The translations under genes and the position numbers were made by a program. A stretch of 64,000 bases of DNA from the NCBI GenBank assembly GCA_951812755.1, contig OX638329.1, forward strand, positions 2,217,339 to 2,281,338. Direction: 5' to 3'. Of the stretch, positions 55,884 to 64,000 are shown piece after piece. Source of the DNA: an uncultured Latescibacterota bacterium (GTDB lineage Bacteria > Latescibacterota > UBA2968). Below the pieces are notes generated by a model. The model was given only the letters and a program-made list of their open reading frames with translations, was not told the origin of the DNA and ran no database searches. Position 1 is the first letter of the stretch; every line of letters starts with the position of its first letter.

Positions 55884-56969
55884 TCATCTGGGAGTCATAA
55901 TAATATCTACTTCCCCAGGCTTCTTCGAAGTATCGCCGTATAGAGCGGTTTGTGTTTTTCTTTTTAAAGGACGAGGTTCTTCACGCAGATTCTTGTTGGG
56001 AAAGGCTGTCCATAGTGCCTTGACAGTAGCTGAGTGCGTAAACTCACGAGCATCTGTACGAACTATGACAATAGCATTATCGCGCATGCGTGGGGCAGCC
56101 CCTCCAAACACATCCGCAAGTAGTTCGAGGTAATCAGACCTCGACTGAAATTTCCTTTGCCAACGCCCCCCTCGCCATCGTGGAGTTGGACCATGCCCGA
56201 GCATCCATAAACGGAGCCACTGGTCGTAGTGATAGTTGGTCACGCCATAGTAGGGTGGCGACGTGAATAGTAGATCGAATGGCAAAGTAAAAGCGCGTCG
56301 TCGCCTATTTGAATTAAGTAGTTGAACACTGTCCCCAAGAAGCACTTCACCCTCCAAGTCAGGTGTTCCCTTCTTATACCGCCGTTCAATCCGCTGTTCT
56401 AAAAAGGCTACAGGATCTATGTCAGGAGGTCTCATTTCGCGCTTGCGCCACCACCGCACGGCATAATCAGGAGCCATTGATTTACTGTCCCGCATCTGGT
56501 TAGATAGCGAACCCAGACGTTTGCCGTGCAGGTGTATCAGGATAAACGCCATCAATGTACGATCTACTTTACTATCTCTCCAGCGCAGGATATCACGAGA
56601 GGCGAGTAAAAAACGCAACACATCTGGCGCATAAGCCCATTCGAAGAACGTAGGTAGGTTCGCACGACCTATGTCTATTCTTTTAGCCGCATATCCGATT
56701 TCTCGCAAGCGCTTAAGAACGCGCCCTTGTGTTACTGGGCGTAGTTTTACGCTACTGTACACCCATCCGACTGGATTAATCTCTATACCACATCCTGTTC
56801 GTTCTTTCGCTGCAGCAGCATAGATACTTGACCCTCGTCCAACGAATGGATCAAGGATGCGGTCTCCGGGCTGCGTGTACTTCTCAATAACCTCGAAAGC
56901 AAAGTCCATTGGAAACATTGCATAGTACGGACCTACGGCAGCCCAGCGTGCTATCTCCTCTTGTATCAT
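55884..56969 (-). CDS. DNA methyltransferase of the HerA-NurA operon
   Basis: The 361-residue enzyme carries the SAM-binding motif I, DRILDPFVGRGSSIYAAAA (residues 37-53), followed by GCGIEINPVGW. The catalytic motif IV is LLFTSPPYYGVTNYHYDQW (Ser-Pro-Pro-Tyr 237-240). The order, motif I first with about 190 residues before motif IV, fits an alpha-like arrangement of N4/N6 amino-methyltransferases with a target-recognition part in between. It methylates adenine or cytosine amino groups in DNA. Its ATG overlaps the NurA stop by four bases. It would mark host DNA so that the HerA-NurA pair spares it. Confidence 0.92.
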   Translation of the reverse strand: MIQEEIARWAAVGPYYAMFPMDFAFEVIEKYTQPGDRILDPFVGRGSSIYAAAAKERTGCGIEINPVGWVYSSVKLRPVTQGRVLKRLREIGYAAKRIDIGRANLPTFFEWAYAPDVLRFLLASRDILRWRDSKVDRTLMAFILIHLHGKRLGSLSNQMRDSKSMAPDYAVRWWRKREMRPPDIDPVAFLEQRIERRYKKGTPDLEGEVLLGDSVQLLNSNRRRRAFTLPFDLLFTSPPYYGVTNYHYDQWLRLWMLGHGPTPRWRGGRWQRKFQSRSDYLELLADVFGGAAPRMRDNAIVIVRTDAREFTHSATVKALWTAFPNKNLREEPRPLKRKTQTALYGDTSKKPGEVDIIMTPR

Positions 56970-58327
56970 GATTCTTCCTCGGACATCAGCTTCTTTGCAA
57001 GTTGCTCAAGGACTTCGCGGCCAAGATTAAGTGGAATCGCTGCCTCGGCGTGGGCCGATACGAGCGGGGCCACCGCGTTCGGAAAGCGTGCTGAGAAGGT
57101 CGCATCAAGCAGGCTCATGGCATCAGTAAGGCGCGGAAAGTGCCTTGCATCCCCACTCGATAGGTTCCGTGCATCCTCTGTGAGAAAGGGAAGGGAGGCA
57201 ACGATCCGAGCACCTGAAGAGGTTTTATAGAAAAACATCCGTCCAAAGTAAGTGGCATCACCAAACGGTTTATCATTGATGGCACTGATGGCGATGTGGG
57301 TACGGATATATTCGTTTGTGAGGAGTACTGCTGTCTGTGGCTTGAATCGTGAGTTTCCGTTTGTTCCATGTGTAGGAGTATCTAATATCTCGTAGTGATC
57401 AACAAATGCCCCGCTTTTTACGATACCGACGATCAGAATATCGCTATCTATCACTTTACGAACAGCCTCGTTGATGCGTTTTATTTCTTGACGAATCGCT
57501 TGGCTAAGCCATGCCGGTTGTCCAAATACCGCAAGCGGTCCATCGAGAATAATGGCGAGGTTACGAAGCAGTCGGAAGCGTCGAGGATCGCGCTCAATCC
57601 AGCGAAGAAAGTTCACGACCCACACCCGCTCCCACACCTGCATTGCCTCTGTAAAAACTGCTCCATTTAGCCCTACCGGATTAAACCTTTCGTGAATGCG
57701 GAGGGCATCGGTCGAGTACCAATTCAGTTTCCGTTGGCATATACAATCCGTTATACCTGGGCGCGGGTCGTAATCAAACTCGCAATCCTCATAGGGACAT
57801 CCTTGCAAACGTGCCGAAGGTTTGTACGCCAAAAGCGCCTCGTATGTCTCAAGCAGCGTCTCTCCGTCAGAGAACGGGCGTTTCTCCTGGATGGCCTCAA
57901 AGAATACGCGGCGGAATGAAGCGTTCGGAGTCGGTTCATTATCCACAACGACATTGCAACCGGGAAGCGCACAGTCGATGCTACCTGCTCCTTCAGTTGT
58001 ACGCGCCACCAACGGAGCCACCGGGCGGTTCCGGTCCAGTTCGCGTTGTTTCTTTACATCGATGATAACTGAGGCAACAGTGAGGTAGGCTAGTTCTGCC
58101 CCAGGATATCCATTCTCGACTGGCACTGGCTGAAGACTTCCATCTATGGCGAGAACGAGATCGGGTAGCCAGTCACTCGGTTTCACATCGGCAATAAGTA
58201 GCTCTGCCTCTGCTTGCCCTTCATCGGGGACCTGTTTCTTACATCGACTCACAATGTCCTGAACGCGTTCGCTATTAGCGATCCGTGCGAGTGGCTTATA
58301 ACTTGCAAATTCGCCTTCAAATGGCAT
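56966..58327 (-). CDS. NurA-domain nuclease
   Basis: The 453-residue protein has the NurA core: LVLAIDGSLQPVPVENGYPGAELAYLTVASVIID (metal-binding Asp62) near the N-terminus, LAIILDGPLAVFGQPAWLSQAIRQEIKRIN at the centre, and HYEILDT, FGDATYFGRMFFYKTSSG near the C-terminus. In archaea NurA forms a ring nuclease with the HerA translocase, degrading 5' ends. A Cys-rich insert (CPYEDCEFDYDPRPGITDCICQRK) may bind zinc. The HerA stop is three bases upstream and the methyltransferase overlaps by four. It is the likely effector of the system. Confidence 0.92.
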   Translation of the reverse strand: MPFEGEFASYKPLARIANSERVQDIVSRCKKQVPDEGQAEAELLIADVKPSDWLPDLVLAIDGSLQPVPVENGYPGAELAYLTVASVIIDVKKQRELDRNRPVAPLVARTTEGAGSIDCALPGCNVVVDNEPTPNASFRRVFFEAIQEKRPFSDGETLLETYEALLAYKPSARLQGCPYEDCEFDYDPRPGITDCICQRKLNWYSTDALRIHERFNPVGLNGAVFTEAMQVWERVWVVNFLRWIERDPRRFRLLRNLAIILDGPLAVFGQPAWLSQAIRQEIKRINEAVRKVIDSDILIVGIVKSGAFVDHYEILDTPTHGTNGNSRFKPQTAVLLTNEYIRTHIAISAINDKPFGDATYFGRMFFYKTSSGARIVASLPFLTEDARNLSSGDARHFPRLTDAMSLLDATFSARFPNAVAPLVSAHAEAAIPLNLGREVLEQLAKKLMSEEES

Positions 58328-58330
58328 AGT

Positions 58331-60496
58331 CTATACCAAGTTGAGTTGTTGTGTAGGAGCCCCTGACTGTGATGCAGAAGCCTCCAGTTTAACCAGCCTT
58401 AACTTAAACTCTCGTACTTGTATGGGGACCACGAAAGGATTTGAAATGGTTTTGACACGGAGAAAGCCTTTGTCTTGAGCACGGAGGATTGATCTCTCAA
58501 AGTCAGCGAAATCATAGAACTTTCGAAGTTCTCGCGTTTCATCCGTATTATTAAGGTGGCCGATAAACCAGTTCGCAGTATTTTTTAGAATATTCCTCTG
58601 GATACTCGAGACTTCCTGTGTGACGTAGATCAAGCCGAGATTGTACTTTGCACCTTCCTTTGCTGTGCGAACCCATATATCTCGATAATCCGTATCGCGG
58701 TCCGACGGAAGCAGGTTGTGGGCTTCCTCAGCGTAGATGAGAATATCCGGTATTTCTTCCGTCGAGCGTCCCTCCCTGAATGACTCCTTATTGCCGTCAA
58801 AGATGCGCTGCACGATTCGGCGTGCCGAGGCGTCGTTTACTGCCTCATCCCCACTGGACTGATCCACGATCACAAGTTTCCCTTCAATTAATGCATCATA
58901 AATATCGTCGACGTAGTCTGTAGTTGTACTCTCGGTATGCTGAGGCCGTGCCTGCCCAATGAGTTGAGCACCATTCGGACGTGCAATCATCTCTAATATG
59001 GCTTTTAGATCTCCATCAGCCCACGCCTCGCCAGAAGAGGAATTTTGAATGTACTCATTCTCAAATCTTTTGTAATCGTTAGTCCCTATGAACCTATGGA
59101 GTGCTTCAAACGCCTGCGCCAGTCGGTCCCAACTCGGTATTTCTGTTCCGAATGTTCGCGCCGCGGACACAAATTCGGGGTCTCCGTTATCTGTCAGTGC
59201 TTGGATCAGGTCTTGGTTGAAGAGGTTGTTGGGGAGGGTAGTGCGCGGCTGAATAGTGTTGGGAGCGATAAAGCCAGACTTTACCAGCAAGGTACGATAT
59301 GCCAACACTTGTCGAGCGTAGCGGATCTGGTCTCCGAATCCCGCTCCTGATTCAAGTGGCTGCAAACGAACTTGCTGGAAGTTCTGGATGTACTTTGAGT
59401 CTCGTGCCGGCAGCACCTCGTCAATGATTTCTTTTCCAATAGGTAGGTTCTCTTCGGCGTGGAAGTTTAGCAACATGAACTCTCGTTCGGGATCATTGGG
59501 ATGATCAAGGATTCCATAAGTAACCACATCTTCGGAATTGCCCTCCTGGCGTCCACGCCACACGTTTTTGAGCGCGTTTGGGGCCTCCCCGCCTGAGTCT
59601 TGTGCATTGGCATTGGCGTATTCCCCATTCGGATCGAAGATGATCTGCCCTACCTCCCTCGGCGAATTCGGATTATATCGAAGATTGAACACCGTCTCTG
59701 CTATGATTTTCGTAGTATTCGACTTTCCAGTCCGTGTCATCCCGAATAGTGCGCTTTTTTGCCCTAACAAGTCTTCCGGTACAATTGTAACTGAAACGTC
59801 GCGAATGCCTTGAAAAGCGCGGTTGGTTGAGGCGTACCGAACTTCGCCGATGTCTACTCCATTACTGTCGATCTCTCGGTAATTTACTATCTGCCGCAAA
59901 GCCTTGCCATTCGGCTTATAAACCTTTAGCCCTTGGTTGGGGTAATAGTTCGACAGGTCAGCACCGAACAGGAGACGCAGCCGTTCATCGTCTCCGACTC
60001 CTGAAGGCTGCAAGTAGAACGTCCCAATAACGCGGCATTGCACTCCGGCGTAACTTAGTAGCTGTGCAGTATTAAAGTCCATCACGTCGGAACGATCCCA
60101 ATGTCCCTCGGTGGGACCAGGTACCTGCTGTGCAGCCTGTACACGCACTCTGGTCGCCTCATCCTCATTCGGTAGCGGTGCGGCATCCATTACGCGCAGC
60201 AGAATTATCGAACTATCTTCCTTAGTGTAGTCAAATTCCTCATCCGGACCAAGTCGCGTGGCGATGAGAAAGCAAAGACTTGGAATACCACCAACCTCTC
60301 GACGGTGGAAATCGTGAATTTGCACAAGAGCCGTCTCATATCCAAGCGAATAGACCTCCCCTACATACTGCTCGGCCTGTACGAGAGAGCCGAGCAATTG
60401 TTGGGCCTGTCGCTGCTCTTCTCCCGTTTCGTAGTCTCTAATTACGCTCTCGGTGCCAGAGATCGAGGGTACACCATCATGAGTTTTAAGGGTCAT
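58331..60496 (-). CDS. HerA-like ATPase (DUF87)
   Basis: The 721-residue protein has an N-terminal HAS-barrel-like region (residues about 35-180). The ATPase domain carries Walker A ALFGMTRTGKSNTTK (about 249-263) and Walker B DILIYAEEAHNLLPSDRD (Glu-Glu-Ala-His at 590-593). The sensor strand is NLGLIYVTQEVSSIQ, and the arginine finger is likely in ETRELRKFYDF. These are the hallmarks of HerA/FtsK-type hexameric DNA translocases. With NurA it would pump and degrade DNA. TAAGG precedes ATG 60496. It leads the operon and its promoter region holds a dispersed palindrome. Confidence 0.95.
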   Translation of the reverse strand: MTLKTHDGVPSISGTESVIRDYETGEEQRQAQQLLGSLVQAEQYVGEVYSLGYETALVQIHDFHRREVGGIPSLCFLIATRLGPDEEFDYTKEDSSIILLRVMDAAPLPNEDEATRVRVQAAQQVPGPTEGHWDRSDVMDFNTAQLLSYAGVQCRVIGTFYLQPSGVGDDERLRLLFGADLSNYYPNQGLKVYKPNGKALRQIVNYREIDSNGVDIGEVRYASTNRAFQGIRDVSVTIVPEDLLGQKSALFGMTRTGKSNTTKIIAETVFNLRYNPNSPREVGQIIFDPNGEYANANAQDSGGEAPNALKNVWRGRQEGNSEDVVTYGILDHPNDPEREFMLLNFHAEENLPIGKEIIDEVLPARDSKYIQNFQQVRLQPLESGAGFGDQIRYARQVLAYRTLLVKSGFIAPNTIQPRTTLPNNLFNQDLIQALTDNGDPEFVSAARTFGTEIPSWDRLAQAFEALHRFIGTNDYKRFENEYIQNSSSGEAWADGDLKAILEMIARPNGAQLIGQARPQHTESTTTDYVDDIYDALIEGKLVIVDQSSGDEAVNDASARRIVQRIFDGNKESFREGRSTEEIPDILIYAEEAHNLLPSDRDTDYRDIWVRTAKEGAKYNLGLIYVTQEVSSIQRNILKNTANWFIGHLNNTDETRELRKFYDFADFERSILRAQDKGFLRVKTISNPFVVPIQVREFKLRLVKLEASASQSGAPTQQLNLV

Positions 60497-60829: not shown

Positions 60830-61222
60830 ATGTCAACTATAGAAAAGTTTGCCGCACTCCTCAAGAATGAACGCCGGACAGCACGCCGGACTCTTCGGGA
60901 ACTCGCAGAGGCCACAGGCAAGTCAATCGGCTACCTATCGGATGTGGAGCAGGGTCGAAAACCACCGCCGTCGCCTAATGTAGTGGCCAAGATCGAGAAG
61001 AAGTTGGGTATTCAGGACAGCCGACTGATGAAACTGGCGGAGGAAGTCCGAAGTTTAATGCCGACTAAGTTAATGAGGATGATTAGGAATAGTAGCCCGA
61101 AGATGACCCAAATGGTCGGGGAGTTGATGCGAGCAGACGGTCTGTCAGAAGAAGATCTGGACAAACTACTTGAGACGGTCGCCCAGATGCAAGAACGGAG
61201 GCAAAATCGATGCGAAAATTAG
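60830..61222 (+). CDS. XRE-family transcriptional regulator
   Basis: The 130-residue protein has a helix-turn-helix in FAALLKNERRTARRTLRELAEATGKSIGYLSDVEQGRKPPPSPNVVAKIEKKLGI (residues about 7-62). A helical C-terminus follows (LDKLLETVAQMQERRQNRCEN). It most likely binds the two palindromes just upstream and represses its own gene, perhaps also the divergent HerA operon. It overlaps the ImmA/IrrE peptidase by 13 bases; in XRE-ImmA pairs the peptidase cuts the repressor when triggered. AAAGGAGG precedes ATG 60830. Confidence 0.93.
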   Translation: MSTIEKFAALLKNERRTARRTLRELAEATGKSIGYLSDVEQGRKPPPSPNVVAKIEKKLGIQDSRLMKLAEEVRSLMPTKLMRMIRNSSPKMTQMVGELMRADGLSEEDLDKLLETVAQMQERRQNRCEN

Positions 61223-61794
61223 TTCCAGCTCGGCCCCGTAGCGGCCAAGAGATCGACGGAATTGCAGAGGATATTCTGGGCTATTTCCAACCCACGGCCA
61301 TCAAGGAACCGCAGGTCGTGAAAGTAGAGCCCATTTTTGAGTTTGGACTTCCCGACTTCGGTATAGAGTCGGACTACCGGTCCCTTGAGGCACGGGGGAT
61401 CCAGGGGTACACCGACTCGGCAAACAGGATCTGCGTGGTGTCGTCTGAACTTGCGGACGATCCCAATGCTGCTGCCTACTTCCGTTCGACCATGGCACAT
61501 GAAATCGGTCACGCGATCTTACACATTCCAGAGTTCCGGCGGCGACGGCAGAAGATTATATCGGAGCAGGCTAAAAAAGATGGGATACTGCATCGACTAC
61601 CCGACACTGAGATCCCCATCTACAGGAATCCCGAATGGCAGGCGCATCGGTTCGCTGGTGGTTTACTAATGCCTGAAGCGGCGGTCAAAAAGGCGATCGC
61701 TATGTATCGCAGTCATGAGATATTAGCGATCATCTTTGAAGTGACCCCGGCATTTGTACGAGCAAGGCTAAAGGGGCTGAAGATGCTGAACTGA
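61210..61794 (+). CDS. ImmA/IrrE family metallopeptidase
   Basis: The 194-residue protein has the zinc motif AHEIGHAILH (His97-Glu98-x-x-His101) and the downstream NPEWQAHRFAGGLLMPEAAV stretch typical of ImmA/IrrE peptidases. Such proteins cleave XRE-type repressors in response to DNA damage or other cues. Its gene overlaps the XRE gene by 13 bases, so the two are made together. The likely target is the XRE protein or a component of the adjacent defence operon. Confidence 0.94.
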   Translation: MRKLVPARPRSGQEIDGIAEDILGYFQPTAIKEPQVVKVEPIFEFGLPDFGIESDYRSLEARGIQGYTDSANRICVVSSELADDPNAAAYFRSTMAHEIGHAILHIPEFRRRRQKIISEQAKKDGILHRLPDTEIPIYRNPEWQAHRFAGGLLMPEAAVKKAIAMYRSHEILAIIFEVTPAFVRARLKGLKMLN

Positions 61795-62006: not shown

Positions 62007-62300
62007 ATGGCACGATCAGTAAGACAGCAGTCGAGACACGACGCTGAGGTTGCCCGGATTGCGAGACGTTATGAGCGTGAGGGCTACGACGTAAAAGCGG
62101 ATATCAAGGGATATCCGCAGCCCGACACGATCGGTGGCTACCGGCCCGATGTGGTAGCCAAAAAAGGGACGACCAGAAAGATTGTCGAGATCGAAACGAC
62201 GGCGTCGGTCAATAGCGCTCGCGATCAAAAGCAGCAGGCCACGTTCCAATACGCGGCAAAACGTAGCAAGGCCACGAGTTTCATCAGGAAGGTCGTGTAG
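62007..62300 (+). CDS. Small PD-(D/E)XK-like nuclease protein
   Basis: The 97-residue protein starts at ATG 62007 behind AAGGAG. It reads RIARRYEREGYDVKADIKGYPQPDTIGGYRPDVVAKKGTTRKIVEIETTASVNSARDQKQQATFQYAA. The pattern Pro-Asp-Val-Val, eight to ten residues, Val-Glu-Ile-Glu, then a Gln-rich helix matches small restriction-endonuclease-fold proteins with a Glu-x-Glu variant of the usual (D/E)-x-K. It has no partner of obvious type, but sits between ImmA and the ubiquitin-like operon. It may be a resolvase-like or restriction-like nuclease of the island. Confidence 0.7.
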   Translation: MARSVRQQSRHDAEVARIARRYEREGYDVKADIKGYPQPDTIGGYRPDVVAKKGTTRKIVEIETTASVNSARDQKQQATFQYAAKRSKATSFIRKVV

Positions 62301-62442: not shown

Positions 62443-62691
62443 ATGAGTGCAGGAAGAAAAATCTTGATCTACGTCAGAGGACGTAAGTACGAGGCCCAAG
62501 AAGAGCAAATCAGCTACGATGAGGTAGTGAATCTGGGATATCCAAATGGAAAGCATGGACCCCTGTACGAATATGACGTAACCTGGAAGGATGGACCTAG
62601 AGGAGAGGAAGAAGGGATTCTCAAGGAAGGAGAGAAAACAAAAATTATTGAGGGGATGAGGTTTGATGTCAAATTTACTGATAAGTCATAA
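62443..62691 (+). CDS. Ubiquitin-like protein (single multi-ubiquitin-type domain)
   Basis: The 82-residue protein starts at ATG 62443 behind AAAGGAG. The sequence ILIYVRGRKYEAQEEQISYDEVVNLGYPNGKHGPLYEYDVTWKDGP and GILKEGEKTKIIEGMRFDVKFTDKS follows the beta-grasp pattern of bacterial multi-ubiquitin domains, including the signature I-S-Y-x-E-V-V and the end G-M-x-F-x-V. Only one domain is present. It lacks a C-terminal Gly-Gly and ends in Lys-Ser. The E1-like gene starts inside its end, so both are translated together. It is probably the modifier of the conjugation-like system. Confidence 0.88.
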   Translation: MSAGRKILIYVRGRKYEAQEEQISYDEVVNLGYPNGKHGPLYEYDVTWKDGPRGEEEGILKEGEKTKIIEGMRFDVKFTDKS

Positions 62692-63895
62692 TAACGACCT
62701 ATCCGAACTAGTAGAGGCAGGCTACCGCGTAAAAATACGCGGAGCCTACCTGCTAGTAGAGGGGATACCGTACGTAAAGCAAAATGGAGACATTGGTAAG
62801 GGAGATATAGTAACGAGTCTGGACCTTGCGGGCGATAAGACCAGACCTCCGAGCGATCATACAGTGTGGTGGACAGGTGAAACACCGCACAGGGCAAGCG
62901 GGGAAAGTATGGAGCCATACTTGAGTTGCGGAAAGTGGGACACAGGACAAGAATTAGGAGAAGGAATCACGGTATACATGCAGTGGTCAAGAAAGCCAAA
63001 GAGTAAAGGAGGCAGTCGTGGGTACAGAGACTACCAAGAAAAAATAGAAACTTACGTGCAAGAAGTTGGCGGTGAAGCGGAAACCAAACGCCCGGGAATT
63101 TTGGAGGCGGCAAGGGCAGGTGGGGATCCAGAGGTCGAATCAAAGACAAGGTTCAAATACGTAGATACAAGCGCGTATCGAAACGGGATAAGAGGGATAG
63201 AACAGAGAATCGAGGACGAGATAGTGGCGGTGGTAGGAGTAGGAGGGAGTGGGTCGTACCTCGTTGACATACTAGCCAAAACAAACATTAAAGAGCTACA
63301 CTTGTACGATGACGATGTTTTGGAGCAACACAACGCGTTCAGAATAGCAGGAGCAGCAAGGATAGAGGAACTTGGGAGTGGGAAGAGTAAGGTAGAATGG
63401 CATCGAGAACGGTATGCGGCAGTGCGGGAAGAAGGGATATACATACATGAGAAGCGAATAGATGATGAGACGCTGAAATGTTTGGCGAAATGCACAACTG
63501 TCTTTATTGCGGTGGACTGTCTGAACAGCAGGAGAAAGATCCAAAATAAATGCAACGAAATGGGAGTGCTACATATAAGTGTTGGGTTAGGGCTGGATAT
63601 AGAAGGCGATAACAACGACCAGATAGGTGGAATGGTAAAAGTAGAAACGCAATACAGACCAAAGGATGTGGGAAAAGAGGGAAACGGAATTCGGGATAGA
63701 GAAGAGGAACAAGCCAATCAGGTATATGGTAACGTGCAAACAGCAGAGCTAAATATGCTAGGTGCGGCACTGGCAATCACAGAATGGAAGGCGATAAGAG
63801 ATGTGTATCGAAACGAAAGAGAGAATGGAATTGATAGCATACTCTACTCCGTAAGCACTGGACGGATACTGTTGGGAAAAAAAGGGAAAGGATAA
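62666..63895 (+). CDS. E1-like adenylyltransferase (DUF6791 plus ThiF domain)
   Basis: The start is ATG 62666 inside the ubiquitin-like gene, behind GATGAGG, with a 26-base overlap. The 409-residue protein has an N-terminal DUF6791-like part (residues 1-140: LSELVEAGYRVKIRGAYLLVEGIPYV, GDIVTSLDLAGDKTRPPSDHTVWWTGE, YRDYQEKIETYV). A ThiF/E1 adenylation domain follows, with VVGVGGSGSYL (191-199), LYDDDVLEQHNAFR (Asp215-217, Arg226) and VFIAVDCLNSRRK (Asp284). These bind ATP and the modifier's C-terminus. No clear E2 active-site Cys can be assigned, though Cys at 88, 272, 276 and 296 exist. It is followed two bases later by a DUF6527-like gene. Confidence 0.9.
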   Translation: MSNLLISHNNDLSELVEAGYRVKIRGAYLLVEGIPYVKQNGDIGKGDIVTSLDLAGDKTRPPSDHTVWWTGETPHRASGESMEPYLSCGKWDTGQELGEGITVYMQWSRKPKSKGGSRGYRDYQEKIETYVQEVGGEAETKRPGILEAARAGGDPEVESKTRFKYVDTSAYRNGIRGIEQRIEDEIVAVVGVGGSGSYLVDILAKTNIKELHLYDDDVLEQHNAFRIAGAARIEELGSGKSKVEWHRERYAAVREEGIYIHEKRIDDETLKCLAKCTTVFIAVDCLNSRRKIQNKCNEMGVLHISVGLGLDIEGDNNDQIGGMVKVETQYRPKDVGKEGNGIRDREEEQANQVYGNVQTAELNMLGAALAITEWKAIRDVYRNERENGIDSILYSVSTGRILLGKKGKG

Positions 63896-63897
63896 AA

Positions 63898-64000
63898 GTG
63901 AGAACAGTGAGATGGGAAACAGAATGGGTAGAGGACATGCCGGATGTGATGGAGAGAGGGAAGGTATACATCTCGATAAAACACCGGCTGACAGAGCATT
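63898..64000 (+). CDS. DUF6527-like protein, cut by the window edge
   Basis: GTG 63898 follows AAAGGA and opens VRTVRWETEWVEDMPDVMERGKVYISIKHRLTEH, which runs to the end of the window (34 codons visible). This matches the N-terminus of DUF6527 proteins, usually encoded directly after DUF6791-ThiF genes. Those proteins carry a downstream Cys-His metal motif not visible here. It would be the third gene of the ubiquitin-like operon, possibly a metal-binding or processing factor. Confidence 0.7.
   Translation, partial: MRTVRWETEWVEDMPDVMERGKVYISIKHRLTEH

Follow-up and report, generated by a model that had tools for sequence, protein, structure and literature searches.

A Ubiquitin-Like Operon with a Serine-Ended Modifier, a DUF6791-ThiF E1 and No Adjacent E2 Gene in an Uncultured Latescibacterota Bacterium

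Introduction

How might a bacterial ubiquitin-like protein (Ubl) be activated and used when it has no terminal Gly-Gly and its gene lies beside one for an E1-like protein but none for an E2? This question is raised by an operon at the end of the 64,000-nucleotide stretch of DNA analysed here (the window; contig OX638329.1, positions 2,217,339 to 2,281,338). The window is part of a 6.53 Mb single-contig genome, so that the genes past its edge could also be read. The initial annotation, made from the letters of the window, had described a single modifier, an E1 with DUF6791 and ThiF domains and a DUF6527-like gene cut by the edge; it had supposed that the missing Gly-Gly calls for another chemistry or a processing step, and had proposed a role in defence. 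In the open literature, to which our search was confined, no paper was found that names DUF6791 or DUF6527, nor any biochemistry on this class of Ubl, DUF6791-E1 and DUF6527 genes.

Gene content of the operon

The gene content supports a Ubl-activating operon (Table 1). Its first gene encodes, as had been described, a single modifier of the multi-ubiquitin type, and this one-domain form is ordinary. Among 100 Ubl-E1 pairs (plasmid loci plus the best 80 genome loci, a sample biased toward clearer relatives), the number of Ubl domains estimated from protein length is one in 32, two in 10 and three or more in 58. The best solved relative of the modifier is the multi-ubiquitin domain protein ZDHYS365 (PDB 9CD2), which is related across the whole family profile (E=2e-59) and has the same TDKS end, but comprises three Ubl domains where the window protein has one. 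For the E1 gene, the mechanical open reading frame opens at TTG 62663; ATG 62666 was preferred as the start because ATG is found at that position in 94 of 97 relatives.

The third gene, which starts with GTG two bases past the E1 stop and had been seen only up to the window edge, is complete in the genome and ends 332 bases beyond the window. It follows the E1 gene in 95 of 101 relatives. Its product carries the motif C-x3-C-x34-C-x2-H, with C36, C38, C40, C75 and H78 invariant in 21 sequences, and is homologous to the DUF6527 protein of Bub operons (hhalign probability 98.9%, E=2.5e-17). Reading further for an E2, a JAB or other genes of the operon, as had been suggested, yielded neither of the two: the genes downstream of DUF6527 are convergent and unrelated, and encode an unnamed 131-aa protein, a Panacea/SocA-like protein and a long UvrA. 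A UvrA-like protein of 1887 aa (L002:6994-12657) apparently contains two UvrA units in one reading frame.

Table 1. Features of the operon and of the genes upstream of it (window coordinates; the window edge is at 64000).
Feature	Position	Strand	Evidence and remarks
HTH regulator, CapH-like, possible operon regulator	60830..61222	+	PADLOC capH 4.4e-7
M78 (ImmA/IrrE) metallopeptidase, HEIGH motif, CapP-like	61210..61794	+	Pfam M78 6.6e-8; PADLOC capP 7e-10
REase_AHJR-like protein, 97 aa, nuclease-type	62007..62300	+	Pfam PF18743 5e-7, partial; unit membership uncertain
Ubl modifier, 82 aa, one Multi_ubiq domain	62443..62691	+	Pfam PF14452, E=1.6e-6, above gathering score
Dual-coding overlap: final Ubl codons and stop / E1 start	62666..62691	+	26 nt; exact length in 97/100 relatives
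E1-like protein, 409 aa, DUF6791 then ThiF	62666..63895	+	Pfam DUF6791 E=6e-36, ThiF E=8e-13
DUF6791 domain: invariant H65, S108, Y130; near-invariant K110, K126	62693..63169	+	Pfam PF20590 E=6e-36
ThiF adenylation core: GxGGxG 191-196, D215, D217, N223, R226, K242, D284	63203..63586	+	invariant in 70 aligned relatives
Tyr354 codon, crossover-loop Tyr	63725..63727	+	Tyr there in 101/101 relatives
DUF6527 protein, 144 aa, predicted Zn-binding	63898..64332	+	E=6.6e-22

Relation to known systems

Judged by its genes and their homologies, the operon belongs to a known but unstudied type, the non-JAB subset of type 6e of Iyer, Burroughs and Aravind (2006; PMC1779556). Row 6e of that work comprises one to three Ub-like domain proteins, an E1-like protein and a small predicted Zn-finger protein, and in a subset of it the E1s have an uncharacterised N-terminal domain that replaces JAB. 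Ub-like domains, a non-JAB N-terminal domain on the E1 and a sporadic spread are common to this subset and to the class of the window operon. The Zn motif given for type 6e (C-x3-C-x35-38-H-x2-C) fits that of the window protein in its spacing, but with the last two ligands swapped. For type 6e, the same paper reports neither a function nor an overlap and does not analyse the tail; the fixed overlap between the Ubl and E1 genes and the Ser-ended modifier described below are new here.

The operon is also related to Bub (PDB 9EA4, 9EA5, 9EA8, 9EAE and 9EAV; PMC13373217). The E1 cores are homologous, the DUF6527 gene is the last in all compared Bub operons as it is in the window, and regulators of the CapH/CapP type are found upstream of Bub operons (PMC13373217), as in the window and in many relatives. 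However, two defining features of Bub fail, and for this reason the operon was not filed as Bub: the JAB-E1 fusion (BubCD), since the window E1 is without JAB and has DUF6791 in its place, and the BubB-type E2, of which there is none in the window operon. The modifiers also differ, as five of six separate Bub Ubls end in TEG and the fused Ubls of Citrobacter and Acinetobacter continue past NNG, whereas the window Ubl ends in Ser. With Bil (BilABCD) the operon has a bacterial Ubl and an E1 in common, but the Bil genes include those for a JAB protease and for an E2 with a catalytic cysteine (PMC11354881), neither of which is in the window operon. With the Cap2/Cap3 proteins of type II CBASS it would share the ThiF-type E1 chemistry, but CD-NTase, E2 and JAB are absent, by Pfam, among the neighbouring genes.

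Conservation of the Ubl C-terminus and of the gene overlap

The window Ubl ends in ...FTDKS, which agrees with the earlier statement that a terminal Gly-Gly is missing. Ser is the last residue in 99 of the 100 Ubl-E1 pairs, mostly within T-x-x-S, the tails TDKS and TVQS being present in 36 and 29 pairs, respectively. The overlap of 26 bases with the E1 gene had been annotated correctly. Such an arrangement goes far beyond what chance would give, as 97 of 100 relatives share both this overlap and the gene order. The constant length of the overlap can be produced by the double coding constraint alone, and no RNA structure stands out at this position (z = -0.8).

TCN is the final Ubl codon before the stop in 96 of 97 cases, and it varies only, but freely, at the wobble base (G, T or A). 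This base is also the middle one of E1 codon 8, where the E1 residue is only R, L or H. Moreover, the Ubl stop is either TAG or TAA, and residue 9 of the E1 switches between Ser and Asn accordingly. The E1 frame thus admits changes that the Ubl frame does not, which indicates selection on the Ubl C-terminus as encoded. This speaks against both a tail that is removed and the processing step that had been supposed. The codons argue instead for a tail encoded in its mature form, for which processing would be unneeded.

The E1-like protein and its crossover-loop tyrosine

Both ATP-site motifs are present in all of the 101 E1s compared. The ThiF part is homologous to the Bub E1 (hhalign E=4e-20), and it is essentially this part that the PADLOC E1-E2 models match. 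An AlphaFold2 model of the full protein had a mean pLDDT of 85 and was unsure at the Tyr354 loop. Its top Foldseek matches, which are E1 and ThiF-like folds only, are headed by the Citrobacter BubCD structures, with ThiF, MoeB, MccB and PaaA as other close folds. We propose that the ThiF domain would adenylate the Ubl at the carboxylate of its Ser-ended tail, mature as encoded.

No Cys is invariant among the 70 aligned E1s, and the best conserved one, C75 in DUF6791, is found in 61 of them and is His in the window protein. Transfer would probably proceed by an oxygen ester and not by a cysteine thioester, with Tyr354, which lies in the crossover loop directly ahead of the last E1 helix, as the leading candidate nucleophile. 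PDB 9EAV is BubCD with the mutation Y370F, in which, according to the PDB sequence, Tyr370 is the Tyr of the crossover-loop motif ERGYITG; this Tyr is conserved in the eight Bub-type E1s that were compared. That Bub forms a Tyr ester is our own reading of the mutant, and Tyr354 may by analogy be equivalent to Tyr370 of BubCD, a match that is positional and not a clean alignment, as the loop of the window class differs in length from that of Bub.

The close folds also bear on a different reading, in which the Ubl tail is activated for a use other than conjugation, as a sulfur carrier, an adenylated signal or the substrate of a peptide modification like those of MccB and PaaA. ThiF, MoeB, MccB and PaaA would all fit such a use, as would the presence of neither an E2 nor a clear deconjugase. 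We consider this reading unlikely, since the E1 showed no rhodanese domain, no cofactor genes adjoin the operon and the closest E1 relative comes from a system with Ubl, E2 and JAB.

The DUF6791 domain

An E2-like identity of DUF6791, read from the loose motif P..H...F.G..PC...G, was rejected, as it is unsupported by profile-profile comparison and by PDB profiles. No relation of the domain was detectable to JAB or to the Bub E2 with hhalign, or to PDB sequences with profiles. Within the model of the full E1 its fold is predicted with good confidence; an AlphaFold model of the domain alone, built with no alignment, reached a pLDDT of 36 and was left unused.

If DUF6791 were nevertheless a diverged E2-like domain, the window protein would be an ordinary E2-E1 fusion. 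In operons of other types, certain bacterial E1s do carry a fused E2-related domain (PMC1779556), and the invariant Ser, His and Tyr of DUF6791 could serve catalysis. However, the profile-profile probability against the Bub E2 is 0.4%, the domain is without a sequence relative in the PDB and, in our own reading of the model, two long strands appear to precede the last helix, unlike the usual E2 order, which makes such a fusion improbable. Under the conjugation pathway that we prefer, the Ubl would reach its target protein with no need of a separate E2, and DUF6791, through its invariant residues, together with the Zn-binding DUF6527 protein may supply target choice, transfer or removal.

E2 and JAB genes near the relatives and in the host genome

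The initial annotation had no separate E2 in view, and there is indeed none in the whole neighbourhood of the window operon. Among 9,169 ORFs near the relatives, the Bub E2 profile gave no E2-like ORF, and the search for JAB gave nothing significant, with one marginal JAB-like match (E=0.006); the positive controls were found in both cases. The host genome has a separate Bub-like operon at 4.286 Mb, which encodes a Ubl, a Prok-E2_E protein, a JAB-E1 fusion and DUF6527. It is located at C1:4286275-4288827 of the genome (L110:6276-8828); a sigma-like gene and one for an M78 peptidase lie upstream of it, and genes for large ATPase, methylase and helicase proteins lie downstream.

It could be argued that the window operon borrows its E2 (and JAB) from this second operon, so that its own Ubl and E1 would enter a conjugation pathway common to both operons, as the Ubl, E2-like, JAB-E1 and DUF6527 genes exist in the same genome. 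However, the Ubl at 4.286 Mb ends in ...QTEG and the other compared Bub Ubls mostly end in TEG or continue past NNG, and not in TxxS; moreover, the three-gene form is kept across very diverse organisms with the E2 absent from the neighbourhood, and we thus regard borrowing as quite unlikely. A decayed or inactive copy is very improbable, because, although the window E1 deviates at well conserved family positions (C75H, D305S, R325K, T327E and D383N) and no second copy turned up across 11 genomes of the genus, the three frames are open, no ATP-site residue is lost, and both the overlap and the Ser tail persist.

Distribution of the class

When each species was represented by one genome, a scan gave at least 557 relatives, spread over Bacteria and Thaumarchaeota and including Chloroflexi, Planctomycetes and Cyanobacteria. 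On two Thaumarchaeota contigs (loci L065 and L073) the 26-nt overlap and the Ser-ended Ubl are likewise kept. The operon is present in one of 11 genomes of the host genus and in three of 64 of the phylum. An E1 relative was found in 114 plasmid records, all with less than 60% identity, and the trio of Ubl, E1 and DUF6527 also appears in NCBI-style annotation of plasmids. Phage records contained no relative, and viral contigs contained six, two of which are partial matches. The sporadic spread and the many plasmid copies point to horizontal transfer. On plasmids (loci L008, L009, L010 and L013), three-Ubl relatives have directly upstream a conserved block, in which a small gene accompanies one for a UvrD-type helicase, and block and operon may form one larger system.

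Upstream genes, regulation and a role in defence

A survey of 115 upstream proteins, taken from the relatives and the window with large UvrD-type proteins set aside, showed that HTH repressors (about 20) and M78 peptidases (18) are the commonest kinds, and that a few WYL and STAS or histidine-kinase-type proteins are present as well; PADLOC assigned 19 of the 115 as CapP-like and 11 as CapH-like. DNA-damage switches of the kinds CapH/CapP, CapW and CapK/CapS have been reported beside CBASS, Bil and Bub operons (PMC13373217). The CapH/CapP-like repressor and peptidase upstream of the window operon may turn it on upon DNA damage. Since this pair and the HerA operon (60496) also point away from each other, the pair may regulate that operon instead.

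The AHJR-like protein encoded between the pair and the Ubl gene is possibly truncated, as it matches part of its family only. Adjoining the Ubl operon, the minus strand at 55884-60496 encodes a DNA methylase, a HerA-like ATPase and an unassigned 453-aa protein that weakly matches NurA, and this group looks like a separate defence cassette.

The defence role that had been drawn from the placement in a defence island is plausible in view of the HerA-like, 453-aa, methylase and CapH/CapP-like neighbours, but it went ahead of the evidence. Protection against phage is not shown for Bub operons (PMC13373217). For the window operon, an anti-phage function is one that we infer from its surroundings.

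Conclusions

Taken as a whole, the explanation that we favour, and hold to be somewhat probable, is that of a reduced Bub-like pathway with adenylation of the Ser tail, an ester on Tyr354, transfer independent of an E2 and a CapH/CapP-like switch. The stricter claim of a Ubl conjugation free of both Cys and E2, in which the Ser-ended modifier would pass from a Tyr ester on the E1 to its targets with the aid of DUF6791 and DUF6527, is put forward as a tentative and rather doubtful proposal.

Together, the loop Tyr, the conserved Ser end of the modifier, the fixed overlap of 26 nt and the absence of both E2 and JAB lead to a clear and testable prediction, namely Ubl conjugation without Gly-Gly, catalytic cysteines or an E2. 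If this is true, the operon would represent a minimal form of ubiquitin-type chemistry, present across Bacteria and some Archaea, and DUF6791 would gain a role.
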